Virus record (IMG/VR): IMGVR_UViG_3300039050_000036
Location: 1 to 25,959 of that record
Length of the DNA stretch: 25,959 nucleotides
Strand: one strand, 5' to 3'
Source: a virus
Shown here: positions 13,198 through 17,781 of the stretch, piece after piece
Numbering within the stretch: the first letter of the stretch is position 1
Layout: each line of letters begins with the position of its first letter
Notes under the pieces: generated by a model
The model's input: only the letters and a program-made list of their open reading frames with translations
Database searches by the model: none
Told to the model about the DNA's origin: nothing
Position numbers and translations under genes: made by a program

Positions 13198-16100
13198 ATG
13201 GCTGTTACAGAAAATTCGTATACAGGTAATGGGTCTCAGACCAATTACTCTTTTACATTTCCATATCTAAAGTCAACCGACGTACAAGTACAGGTTGACG
13301 CAGCCGTGACTACTGCGTGGTCATTTGCCAACGCTACCACGGTACAATTTAATACTGCTCCCGCTAACGGAGCCAAAATCAAAATACTTAGAGATACGAA
13401 CGTCGATAGTCTAGCAGCCACCTTTTATGCTGGATCTTCAATTAAGTCAGAAGATCTTAATGATAACTATACTCAAAACTTATACAAAACTCAAGAGGTA
13501 GGAGCTAGGTTTTTCAGTAACACTGGTGGAACCATGACTGGAGACCTAACTCTTGCAGAGGACGTAGAGATAATTTTTGAGGGTGCTACAGATGACGCAC
13601 ACGAAACTAAGTTAACTGTAGCTGACCCTACAGCAGACAGAACAATTACTTTACCTAACGTAACTGGTACAGTAGTAACAACAGGAGACACAGGCACAGT
13701 TGCTACAGGTATGATAGCAGCTGATGCAGTTAACGGAACAAAGATAGCTGATGACTCTATTAACTCAGAGCACTATGTTGATGGTTCTATTGATACTCAG
13801 CATATAGCGGACTCACAAATTACAACTGCTAAGATAGCTGACAATAATGTTACAACTGCTAAAATAGTAGATGCAAATATAACAACAGCCAAGATTGCTG
13901 GTGATGCAGTTACACAAGCTAAAATACAAGCTGGTGCTGTAGGTAATACTAAACTAGCTAGTGATGCAGTGACTACAGTTAAGATTGCAGACAATCAGAT
14001 AACTACAGCAAAGATAGCTAATGATGCAGTTACAGCAGATAAGATAGCTAATACTTCAGTTACAGCTGGTTCATATTCTGCTGCTGACATTACAGTTGAT
14101 GCACAGGGTAGAGTTACAGCTGCATCTAGTGGAGCTATAGCTACAAGTGAAATAACTGACTCAGCAGTTAGTACAGCTAAGTTAGCAAACGATTCTGTTA
14201 CTACAGCAAAAATAGCTAACGATGCAGTCACAGCAGCTAAGATAGCTACTGATACAATAACACAAGGTGAACTGGCTAACAGCTCAGTCGGCTCAGGTGA
14301 ACTTGCTTCTAACTCTGTTATAACATCTAAAATTACAGATGCTAACGTAACAACAGTTAAAATTGCAGACTCTAACGTAACACTAGCCAAGTTAGCTAGT
14401 GATTTAAAACAGACATCTATATCTAATAGTGATGCTCAGTTACCAACATCTGGAGCTGTTGTCGACTATGTTGCTGCACAGATCGCACCTCTTGGTGGAT
14501 TAGAAGTTATAGCAACAGATGCAGCATTTCCAAATGCACAGCCTCAAGCTGGTGTAGTAATATCTATAGCAGATGCTGGAGGTTTAGTCGTAAATGGATC
14601 TGGTACATCAACTACAGGTAGAACTGTAGGCGGAAGTACAGTAACTATTAATAATATCAACTCTCAATTTAACAACACTACTGTTGATAATGGAGTAGCT
14701 ATGATGGTTAGTTCTACTGGCTCTGGTCAGATATACAACTATCATAAAGCAACACTTAAAGAAGCTGATTTACTTAGCCTTAGTGGTGATATAAATGATT
14801 TTGCTGAAAGATATAGAGTATCTAATACTGCACCTACTTCTTCTTTAGATGAAGGAGACTTGTGGTGGGATAGTGCTACAGATAAACTAAAGGTATATGA
14901 TGGTTCTTCATGGGACGAAGTAGCATCTAGTGGTGACTTTTATATAAATACAATATCTAGTTATACAGGAACAGGAGGTAATAGTGCAACATTTGACGGA
15001 ACAGCTTATAGGTTTGTCTTATCAAACCCCGGTTCTTCAGCTCAACAACATGTCGTATCAATCAATGGAGTCATTCAGAAACCTAATTCTGGAACCAGCC
15101 AACCCTCAGAGGGATTTGTTATTGATGGTTCTAGTATTATTTTCTCCAATGCTCCTGCTAGCGGCTCTGACTATTTCATCCTCACGCTCGGAACAACAGT
15201 AAGTATTGGTACACCAAGTGATGGTACAGTAACAGCTCCTAAGATTGCGAGTGGTGCTGTAACTACAGCTAAGATTGCAGATGATAATGTTACAGCAGCT
15301 AAGATATCTAATAACGAGGACTTTACTATTAACAGCGTAACTGTTGGTAAAGGTGCAAACTCTGTTGCTGGTAACACAGTTCTTGGAGAGAGTGCTTTAG
15401 ATGCTTCTGTTAGTGGAGTTGATAATACAGCCATTGGTAAAAATGCTTTAACAGCATTAACTTCGGGAGCAGATAACACTGGTGTTGGTAAAGCTTCATT
15501 AGCTGCTTTGACTACAGGAAGTCATAATACTGCAATCGGAACTGAATCTATGGATGCACTTTCTACAGGTTCACATAATACAGGATTAGGTAAAGCTGCT
15601 CTTGGGTCTTTAACTACAGCAGATAACAATACAGCAGTAGGTTCTGGTACTTTAGGTTTAAACACAACTGGAACTAACAATACAGCAGTTGGAAGAAGTG
15701 CTTTAGTAGAAAACACAACTGGAGCTTCAAACGTAGCAGTAGGTGCGTATACCTTAGATGCTAACACTACAGCTTCCGATAACACTGCTGTTGGAATGGG
15801 TGCATTAGGTTTAAACACAACTGGTGCAAGTAATGTTGCTGTTGGTAGAGGAGCATTAGACTCTAATACTACAGCTTCCAATAATACAGGTCTAGGTAAA
15901 GACGCTTTATATGCAAACACAACTGGAGGTACTAATACTGCTGTAGGAAAAGACTCTTTAGCGTCAAATACAACTGCTAGTGCCAATACTGCATGTGGTA
16001 AATCAGCATTACAATTAAACACGACAGGGGCAAATAACACTGCTGTAGGTAAAGATGCTCTTTATGCAAACACAACTGGTCTATCAAATACTGCGGTAGG

Positions 16101-17781
16101 AAAAAATGCTTTAATAGCAGCTACAACAGGAGGATATAATGTCGCCTTAGGTGCTGAAGCATTAGAGACTCAAACTAATGCTAATTATAACGTTGGTATT
16201 GGATATAGAGCTTTAAGACATACTACTGCGTCAGACAGTACCGCAGTTGGATATGCAGCATTAAAAGAAAACACAAGTGGAGCAGAAAACGTTGCAGTCG
16301 GAAAAAACGCTTTAGCTAATAATACTACAGGAGGTTCTAACAATGCTTTCGGTAGTGGAGCATTAGGTAACAATACTACAGGTAATAATAACACCGCCTT
16401 TGGTCATGCAGCTTTAGATGCTGCTGCAACCGCATCACACAATACTGCTGTTGGATATGTAGCCTTAAGTGATAACACCTCTGGAGCATATAACACTGCT
16501 GTAGGATCAACAGCTTTAGATGCTAATACTAATGGAGAAGAAAATACAGCAGTTGGTTATAACTCAATGGGAGCTAATACTACTGGAAATAATAATGCAG
16601 CCTTTGGTTTTGGAGCATTAAGAACAAATACAACTGGTGGAAGTAACACTGCAATAGGTAAAGTAGCTTTAGCTGCTAACACGTCTGCATCAAATAATAC
16701 TGCTGTAGGTAGTTCAGCTTTAGCATCAAACACAACTGGAAGTATGAATGTTGCTGTTGGTGTCGAGGCTTTAAGTTCAGTAACTACAGGAGAAAAAAAT
16801 ATAGCTATTGGTTATCGTGCTGGAGAAGCTATTACAGATTCGGAAGATAACGTAGCAGTTGGACAGCAAGCATTAGAAGAAACCACGACTGGTGATAGAA
16901 ATATAGGTATAGGTACAAGAGCTTTAGATAACAACACGACTGCTAGTGATAATATTGCTATTGGACATGAAGCTTTAAAATCGAACTCAAGTGGAGCCGA
17001 TAATGTAGCAGTTGGTGGATTTTCCCTAGATTCCAATACGACAGGAACAGATAATGTAGCTGTGGGTAAATCTGCGTTAGGAAAAAACACAACAGCAAGT
17101 GATAATACAGCAGTTGGAAGAGAGGCTTTACTGAATTGTACGACAGGAGGTAAAAACTCAGCCGTAGGTAGAGGTGCAATGACTGATTTAACAACTGGAA
17201 CTGGTAACTGTGCTATTGGAGAAAACGCTGCTGCTGATATAACCTCTGGTGCTAATAATGTAGCCGTTGGAATGGACGCTTTAAGGCTTGTTACTACCTC
17301 AAATGGTAATATTGGGATAGGTGAATCTGCTGGTAACAATATAACAACAGGTGCGGGTAATGTTTGTATTGGTACAGGTGCTAGTGCCACATCTGCAACT
17401 GCAGCTGGTGAATTTACACTTGGTAGTGTCAATATCAGTACTTTAAGATGTAATACTCAAACAATTAGTTCTCTATCAGATAAAAGAGATAAAACAAATG
17501 TTATAGATTTGCCTGAAAGCTTAGATTTTATTAATGCACTAAGACCTGTTAAATTTAAATGGGCTACTAGGGACGGTAATTCAAAAGATGATACTTTTGA
17601 ACATGGATTTATTGCACAAGATTTACAATCTGCACAAAAAGAAAATGAAGCAGATTATTTGAAATTAGTTATGGATAATAACCCTGATAGATTAGAAGCT
17701 AGTTATGGAAAATTAGTGCCAATTCTTGTCAACGCAATAAAAGAATTATCAACAAAAGTCACAGCCTTGGAGGGCAAATAA
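13198..17781 (+). CDS. Tail fibre with gp17-like anchor, YadA-type repeats and S74 chaperone
   Basis: A 1527-residue receptor-binding fibre. Residues 8-68 form a T7 gp17-like attachment domain, and KTQEVGARFFSNTGGTMTG follows at about 95-115. Residues 172-400 are decapeptide repeats of the type DAVTTAKIA. A middle part (about 430-680) holds a GDLWWDSATDKLKVYDG segment common in phage fibres. Residues 726-1404 are forty 17-residue repeats of the pattern NTAVGxxALxxNTTGxx, as in YadA-type left-handed beta-rolls. The end is a peptidase S74 intramolecular chaperone with the Ser-Lys dyad Ser1427 and Lys1432 in SDKRDK, then a GFIAQDLQ motif and a terminal coiled coil. Cleavage before Ser1427 would release a 101-residue chaperone after trimerisation. 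No Shine-Dalgarno sequence is seen. Confidence 0.93.
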   Translation: MAVTENSYTGNGSQTNYSFTFPYLKSTDVQVQVDAAVTTAWSFANATTVQFNTAPANGAKIKILRDTNVDSLAATFYAGSSIKSEDLNDNYTQNLYKTQEVGARFFSNTGGTMTGDLTLAEDVEIIFEGATDDAHETKLTVADPTADRTITLPNVTGTVVTTGDTGTVATGMIAADAVNGTKIADDSINSEHYVDGSIDTQHIADSQITTAKIADNNVTTAKIVDANITTAKIAGDAVTQAKIQAGAVGNTKLASDAVTTVKIADNQITTAKIANDAVTADKIANTSVTAGSYSAADITVDAQGRVTAASSGAIATSEITDSAVSTAKLANDSVTTAKIANDAVTAAKIATDTITQGELANSSVGSGELASNSVITSKITDANVTTVKIADSNVTLAKLASDLKQTSISNSDAQLPTSGAVVDYVAAQIAPLGGLEVIATDAAFPNAQPQAGVVISIADAGGLVVNGSGTSTTGRTVGGSTVTINNINSQFNNTTVDNGVAMMVSSTGSGQIYNYHKATLKEADLLSLSGDINDFAERYRVSNTAPTSSLDEGDLWWDSATDKLKVYDGSSWDEVASSGDFYINTISSYTGTGGNSATFDGTAYRFVLSNPGSSAQQHVVSINGVIQKPNSGTSQPSEGFVIDGSSIIFSNAPASGSDYFILTLGTTVSIGTPSDGTVTAPKIASGAVTTAKIADDNVTAAKISNNEDFTINSVTVGKGANSVAGNTVLGESALDASVSGVDNTAIGKNALTALTSGADNTGVGKASLAALTTGSHNTAIGTESMDALSTGSHNTGLGKAALGSLTTADNNTAVGSGTLGLNTTGTNNTAVGRSALVENTTGASNVAVGAYTLDANTTASDNTAVGMGALGLNTTGASNVAVGRGALDSNTTASNNTGLGKDALYANTTGGTNTAVGKDSLASNTTASANTACGKSALQLNTTGANNTAVGKDALYANTTGLSNTAVGKNALIAATTGGYNVALGAEALETQTNANYNVGIGYRALRHTTASDSTAVGYAALKENTSGAENVAVGKNALANNTTGGSNNAFGSGALGNNTTGNNNTAFGHAALDAAATASHNTAVGYVALSDNTSGAYNTAVGSTALDANTNGEENTAVGYNSMGANTTGNNNAAFGFGALRTNTTGGSNTAIGKVALAANTSASNNTAVGSSALASNTTGSMNVAVGVEALSSVTTGEKNIAIGYRAGEAITDSEDNVAVGQQALEETTTGDRNIGIGTRALDNNTTASDNIAIGHEALKSNSSGADNVAVGGFSLDSNTTGTDNVAVGKSALGKNTTASDNTAVGREALLNCTTGGKNSAVGRGAMTDLTTGTGNCAIGENAAADITSGANNVAVGMDALRLVTTSNGNIGIGESAGNNITTGAGNVCIGTGASATSATAAGEFTLGSVNISTLRCNTQTISSLSDKRDKTNVIDLPESLDFINALRPVKFKWATRDGNSKDDTFEHGFIAQDLQSAQKENEADYLKLVMDNNPDRLEASYGKLVPILVNAIKELSTKVTALEGK
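13711..14400 (+). repeat. Degenerate 30-bp coding repeats (decapeptide DAVTTAKIA type)
   Basis: A roughly 10-residue unit recurs about twenty times, for example DNNVTTAKIV, DANITTAKIA, GDAVTQAKIQ, NDAVTAAKIA. One interruption (about 14065-14150) holds ADITVDAQGRVTAASSG. Shorter relatives return at about 15220-15310. Such repeats occur in many phage fibres and probably form the shaft. Confidence 0.8.
15373..17409 (+). repeat. Forty 51-bp coding repeats (17-residue YadA-like units)
   Basis: Counted by eye, there are forty units of the form N-T-A-V-G-x-x-A-L-x-x-N-T-T-G-x-x. All are 17 residues except one unit of 16 near 16195-16240. The span is 679 residues. Units differ at the x positions and in codon choice, so the array is old and held by selection rather than recently expanded. 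The gene is in frame throughout, so this is not a CRISPR array. Confidence 0.9.
17769..17774 (+). promoter_or_regulatory. Strong Shine-Dalgarno for the small gene at 17782
   Basis: GGAGGG lies 7 bases before the ATG, inside the last codons of the fibre gene. Most genes in the window lack such a site, so this one stands out. Confidence 0.75.

Follow-up and report, generated by a model that had tools for sequence, protein, structure and literature searches.

Forty 17-residue repeats in the tail fibre of a probable marine T7-like podovirus: likeness to YadA heads and exchange among relatives

A tail fibre gene in which forty units of 17 residues follow one another raises the question of what such an array builds, and how it changes from one phage to the next.

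The fibre gene, its array and its flanks

The window, by which we mean the whole 25,959 bp stretch of viral DNA analysed, encoded a tail fibre of 1527 amino acids (13,198 bp–17,781 bp), an open reading frame that matched PHROG tail-fibre and tail-spike families; all features given in this section lie on the plus strand. The array occupied 15,373 bp–17,409 bp (residues 726–1404) and had the consensus NTAVGxxALxxNTTGxx. It ran in frame for 679 residues as 39 units of 17 residues and one of 16 (16,189 bp–16,236 bp; residues 998–1013), which is exactly the number, the off-length unit and the extent that a preliminary description had given. Self-identity of the array region at a lag of 17 was 0.467, compared to a mean of 0.109 and a maximum of 0.151 in 1000 shuffles, and this ruled out a chance origin of the periodicity. 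A 17-column unit profile detected 40 units in the fibre protein and 0.52 per shuffled copy (200 shuffles); as the profile was derived from these very units, this control addresses chance only. Columns 1, 3, 5, 8, 9 and 13–15 of the unit were strongly conserved and columns 6, 7, 10, 11, 16 and 17 were freely variable. The array matched three PHROG phage structural families, phrog_23837 (E 4e-157), phrog_4636 (E 2.3e-123) and phrog_6002 (E 5.3e-110). It was preceded by a conserved cap, NNEDFTINSVTVGKGANSVAG (15,310 bp–15,372 bp). Among the 118 loci that we examined, which were selected by fibre likeness and of which two are copies of window stretches, an identical or nearly identical cap block preceded the array in L084, L094, L097, L107, L109, L111 and L112.

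On the N-terminal side, residues 6–101 (13,213 bp–13,500 bp) matched the T7-type anchor domain PF03906 (Pfam E 3.4e-16; 59.8 bits, cut-off 25.2). A stem built from TAKIAD-type repeats, each about 10 residues long, was read from the translation over approximately 13,675 bp–14,427 bp and contained a 30-nt tandem array (14,164 bp–14,248 bp). On the C-terminal side, the translation gave a 22-residue tip (17,410 bp–17,475 bp) between the array and the expected cleavage site, which was placed from the S74 family. Residues 1427–1527 (17,476 bp–17,778 bp) were recognised as an S74 intramolecular chaperone by both Pfam and Foldseek. The Peptidase_S74 match covered residues 1427–1481 (E 1.1e-11; 45.3 bits, cut-off 22), and Foldseek of a model of the fibre end (model B, see below) gave the MyRF chaperone 7dc3 as the top match (probability 1.00), with the endosialidase-type structures 3gw6 and 3gud also listed. 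When the S74 region was compared with the PDB by phmmer, in contrast, no S74 entry was recovered.

The expected catalytic serine, Ser1427 (17,476 bp–17,478 bp), and lysine, Lys1432 (17,491 bp–17,493 bp), were present in 28/28 aligned C-termini and correspond in spacing to S911 and K916, the catalytic pair described for endoNF (PMC8326128). These 28 sequences had been selected by an S74-like motif, so the invariance of the pair is a sign of consistency and not an independent test. The T7-type anchor and the chaperone, predicted to cleave itself, that the preliminary description had placed on either side of the array were borne out by PF03906, Peptidase_S74 and the intact Ser-Lys pair. In a Pfam scan of the fibre at E ≤ 1, PF03906 and S74 were the only domains found, and there was no C-terminal membrane beta-barrel anchor.

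The explanation that we favour as a whole, with moderate confidence, is a trimeric fibre of a T7-like podovirus that carries a YadA-like roll, cuts itself with its S74 domain and exchanges its distal part. PF03906 would dock the fibre to the tail and the TAKIAD-repeat stem would run outward from it. The forty units would be stacked layers of a left-handed parallel beta-roll, each with 14 residues and about three extra ones around Asn-Thr-Thr. S74 would trimerise and fold the chain and then self-cleave before Ser1427. If cleavage is as in the S74 family, the mature fibre would terminate in the array and the 22-residue tip, so that either the side of the array or the tip would face the host. This distal part would be swapped between phages, as a module or as blocks of the array. 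At the rise of 4.8 Å per layer given for adhesin heads (PMC9543794, section 8), forty layers would come to about 19 nm, and the "very long" fibre of the preliminary description is long in a relative sense.

The fold of the array

Two single-chain models were made. Model A consisted of 14 mid-array units (57 aligned segments) and had a mean pLDDT of 80.3, with the five models spanning 57.9–80.3. Model B consisted of residues 1201–1527, that is the last 12 units, the tip and the chaperone (28 aligned sequences), and had a mean pLDDT of 83.2, the array part being mostly at 77–92. Structural alignment of model B placed adhesin heads first, with Z scores of 17.8 (2.3 Å over 179 residues) and 17.5 for CbpF and 14.8 for BpaC (24% identity); YadA (14.3), AtaA (12.9) and BoaA (12.6) were interspersed with left-handed beta-helix enzymes at Z 10.8–14.7. 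Of these enzymes GlmU and LpxD, at 13–14.7, were so close to YadA that the roll is not singled out by Z alone. Foldseek against the PDB gave zero matches at E ≤ 0.001 for models A and B alike.

The canonical layer motif of YadA heads, GxNSVAIGAxSxAx, has 14 residues (PMC9543794). Its best placement on the unit put the first glycine on column 15, a fit equalled by 2/300 column-shuffled controls. The three extra residues of the unit scored nearly equally at any site after motif positions 8 to 14, and these sites include the place between layers, where loop insertions are reported for adhesin heads (PMC9543794, section 8).

Sequence profiles were less specific. The YadA_head profile PF05658 had no match in the window at E ≤ 1, a search that in control genomes gave matches in 4/14 and exceeded the cut-off in one, and it was absent from the best 25 of the 27 families listed for the 57 array segments. 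The left-handed beta-helix model LbH_EIF2B matched 26/57 of these segments in Pfam, all weakly. A search of NCBIfam gave no match, and comparison of the units with solved structures by sequence gave single matches at E 0.17 and 0.36, both unrelated. A solved-structure sequence relative of the array was rejected on these two matches. Membership of the YadA family by sequence was rejected on the lack of a YadA_head match, so the likeness is that of something that works like a YadA head and not that of a family member.

The same array could form a right-handed beta-solenoid shaft, as in P22-type tailspikes, instead of a YadA roll. Model A pointed in this direction, since it aligned best to the Sf6 tailspike (Z 16.3; 2.6 Å over 225 residues) and then, among others, to AlgE4, pertactin and the P22 tailspike; the tailspike matches are right-handed folds. 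Adhesin heads were absent from the best 50 matches listed for model A, which is not evidence against them. We nevertheless judge a right-handed shaft unlikely, as adhesin heads ranked first for model B, the YadA layer motif fitted the unit and the weak Pfam likeness of the repeats was to the left-handed LbH_EIF2B. The adhesin-head fold is itself described as left-handed (PMC9543794). Model B was preferred because of its natural C-terminal end, its slightly higher confidence, the higher identity of its matches (17–24% for adhesin heads, compared to 5–15% in model A) and its agreement with the motif. A YadA-like left-handed roll is accordingly the fold favoured by model B and the motif, the two models disagreeing on handedness, and the forty units probably stack into a rod resembling a bacterial adhesin head. 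Of the YadA likeness originally proposed, the beta-solenoid fold and the 14 + 3 fit of the motif stood, together with model B; against it were the missing YadA_head match and the right-handed model A.

Exchange and unit number among relatives

Fourteen stem relatives, chosen largely for their absence from the list of loci with arrays, were inspected and sorted into types by reading their translations. In 12 of them the fibre ended inside the locus, twice with an array (L082 and L097) and ten times with another end; the alternative ends included IYHDG repeats or a short tip. L003, L004, L005 and L107 had a stem-like sequence and then an array. The DNA of L083 was 90.6% identical to the window between 11,237 bp and 14,243 bp and then continued into a different distal part without the array. 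Units were detected in 0/4 podoviruses with related stems (P-SSP3, P-SSP2, S28-C3 and NATL2A-133). The distal part of the fibre is exchanged among relatives, as modules or as array blocks.

Alignment of nine array pairs (eight with the window, and HTVC111P/HTVC112P) in their best register gave 0.44–0.54 identity, compared to 0.40–0.47 over all unit pairs, and unit-to-unit correspondence between arrays was mostly lost. Traces of it survived, however: register 0 was best in 4/8 of the window pairs, and the first five units of the window had 0.58 and 0.62 identity to those of L084 and L097 respectively. L003 and L004 showed no trace of a register (0.49 against 0.47) despite flanks that were 81% and 69% identical. 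Identity between HTVC111P and HTVC112P, which share one isolation host, a SAR11 strain, was 87.5% ahead of the array and 69.4% over S74, but only 44% in the best register of the array, compared to 40% over all unit pairs.

Register was retained in four closer pairs, L111/L112, L041/L043, L054/L069 and L016/L030. Both ends of the array were nearly identical between L054 (3139 bp–4566 bp) and L069, and about 18 central units differed, with 28 units in each; a swap at a constant 28 units suggests a length constraint or a double crossover. L016 and L030 were identical from one unit onward, and their earlier units were no closer than unrelated ones. The pattern in these two pairs is one of block replacement. 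The mosaic junction of L046 was present in two contigs, and those of L052, L016 and L030 were each present in a single contig, so that assembly errors are possible for these three. In addition, the breaks of L046 and L052 were no more than 0.9 kb from the end of the locus sequence and L016 started within the array. This weakness of assembly does not apply to L054/L069, in which both flanks were present, or to the isolates HTVC111P and HTVC112P.

In five stem-sharing relatives with a complete array, 36 (L003), 41 (L004), 35 (L082), 31 (L097) and 30 (L107) units were detected, compared to 40 in the window; the L003 count was 37 before one stray early match was removed. L005, the sequence of which opened inside the stem, had 36 detected units. 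Degenerate layers are undercounted by this procedure, as seen in the gap-free pair L111/L112, which read 29 and 28; minor differences in unit number are accordingly unsafe.

The preliminary description had proposed that repeat number varies by recombination and alters reach or host range. Rapid change by slippage or unequal recombination, tuning the length of the fibre, would agree with the differing counts of the stem relatives and with L016/L030, in which the distal array was identical and the sequence before it was not. The window itself argued otherwise: DNA identity between units stayed at 0.54–0.57 whether they were neighbours or up to 11 units apart, and an exact repeat as long as the longest in the array (20 nt) arose in 45/200 synonymous shuffles, which together ruled out a recent repeat expansion there. 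L111/L112 (90% identical) and L041/L043 (97%) aligned without gaps, and L054/L069 swapped about 18 central units, each still having 28. Slippage or tuning of reach is weakly supported and we consider it very unlikely; exchange of blocks is better supported. What remained of the proposal is that unit numbers differ between stem relatives; they were unchanged in the near-identical pairs compared, and no recent duplication was seen. Block exchange bears also on whether the array is a spacer only, with receptor specificity conferred by the 22-residue tip or the second fibre (18,040 bp–19,509 bp) and unit number of little consequence. The freely variable unit positions, the presence of a second S74 fibre gene and the lack of the array in several stem relatives would fit a spacer, yet close relatives exchange array blocks while keeping the flanks. 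Moreover, when cyanophage S-TIM4 was put through experimental evolution, every population acquired mutations in a structural protein with a YadA domain, to which this fibre is likened by that domain (PMC6224464). We hold the spacer to be possible, at less than even weight.

A further reading, offered tentatively, is that the 17-residue units represent a separate subtype of left-handed beta-roll (14 residues plus a three-residue Asn-Thr-Thr ladder), which in many phages serves as a cassette for exchange in register. Since all layers would share the same frame and core, a fibre could take up blocks from another phage and stay intact, and the surface of the roll itself would be a recombinable surface for contact with the host. 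Tail fibres set the choice of bacterial host by a phage, and the in-frame exchange of array blocks is a concrete, testable route to reshuffled fibre surfaces.

Genome surroundings and known systems

Near the fibre gene were genes for capsid, tube, nozzle, terminase and the second S74 fibre. The nearest named nozzle proteins were from the uncultured marine phage S28-C3 and Synechococcus phages, the nearest named stems from Prochlorococcus and Synechococcus podoviruses, and the nearest named backbones and stems overall from marine podoviruses, mostly cyanophages. The phage is probably a marine T7-like podovirus and a cyanophage, and these nozzle and stem neighbours make a picocyanobacterial host likely. 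The product of the second fibre gene (plus strand) combined repeats of the IYHDG type with an S74 domain of its own; in the first fibre of some relatives, the IYHDG type takes the place of the 17-residue array.

Other observations concern the surrounding genes. Near its C-terminal end, the nozzle gene product (gene 2722 bp–5352 bp) contained a stretch of some 65 residues (4951 bp–5175 bp, plus strand) that resembled the fibre anchor (29/62 identical) and could, going by this resemblance, offer fibres a second place to dock. It was unmatched in 24 of the 25 phage records listed (out of 26), in which only the downstream part aligned; among those listed S28-C3 alone covered it, and a copy with 70% identity lay at the border of the L088 locus. 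A Glutamine-II riboswitch aptamer, RF01704 (494 bp–548 bp, plus strand; 53.4 bits, gathering score 33, E 1.7e-10), lay upstream of the major capsid gene (902 bp–2047 bp), with small ORFs at or after the aptamer (509 bp–616 bp and 616 bp–744 bp); a glutamine sensor before a phage capsid gene merits separate attention. An HNH endonuclease-like ORF (22,209 bp–22,535 bp, plus strand) was found a short distance upstream of the terminase gene, and an ORF of 501 amino acids with a TTG start (22,532 bp–24,037 bp, plus strand) adjoined the latter and had no PHROG match.

In a search of 50,697 phage records the array found matches in 110, and in 15 of these the match covered 80% or more of the array; the hosts of the matching phages were Gram-negative, Gram-positive and archaeal. 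The 118 loci contained 102 open frames with at least eight detected units, counting duplicates and the window's own copy, and the biggest array had 158 detected units (L032). With arrays so common and so long, forty units are unremarkable. In 2014 a fibre that combines an anchor, repeats, a YadA-like domain and S74 was reported for marine T7-like phages, the YadA part being poorly recruited from metagenomes (PMC3909814). YadA domains are also reported in virion proteins of cyanophages (PMC9146016) and in structural genes of pelagimyophages (PMC7029224). The literature searched, which included few subscription papers, yielded such YadA-domain phage proteins and no printed report of a 17-residue phage roll. 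The fibre is a further example of a published type and ordinary in itself; what stays of interest is that array blocks are exchanged in frame, and the 14 + 3 layer.

The pelagiphage fibres of Mizuno et al. (2014) share with this one a PF03906 N-terminus, repeats, a C-terminal YadA-like domain (3S6L) and S74; the likeness is one of description, and the account in PMC3909814 considered here states neither how long the unit is nor how many layers there are, and shows no structure. HTVC111P gp52, HTVC112P gp48 and Methylophilales phage Venkman gp55 also carried 17-residue arrays, in which 30, 29 and 32 units were detected, with an S74-type motif after the array as in the window. They were shorter (811, 756 and 730 amino acids), with no more than 122 residues before the array and no long stem. 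The S74 domains of endoNF (3gw6), MyRF (7dc3) and T5 pb1 have Ser and Lys five residues apart, as does this fibre, and what precedes S74 differs: a triple beta-helix in endoNF (PMC8326128), and the 17-residue array and 22-residue tip in the window. Bacterial adhesin heads (YadA 1p9h, BpaC 7o23, BoaA 3s6l, CbpF 9gh5) share the layer motif and, in model B, the fold. The BpaC head is described as 42 layers of 14 residues (PMC9543794), compared to 40 units here; adhesin layers have 14 residues (15 in UspA1), whereas 39/40 units of the window have 17. Adhesins are anchored by a membrane barrel and end in a C-terminal stalk and barrel, whereas the window fibre has a phage anchor and a C-terminal S74.
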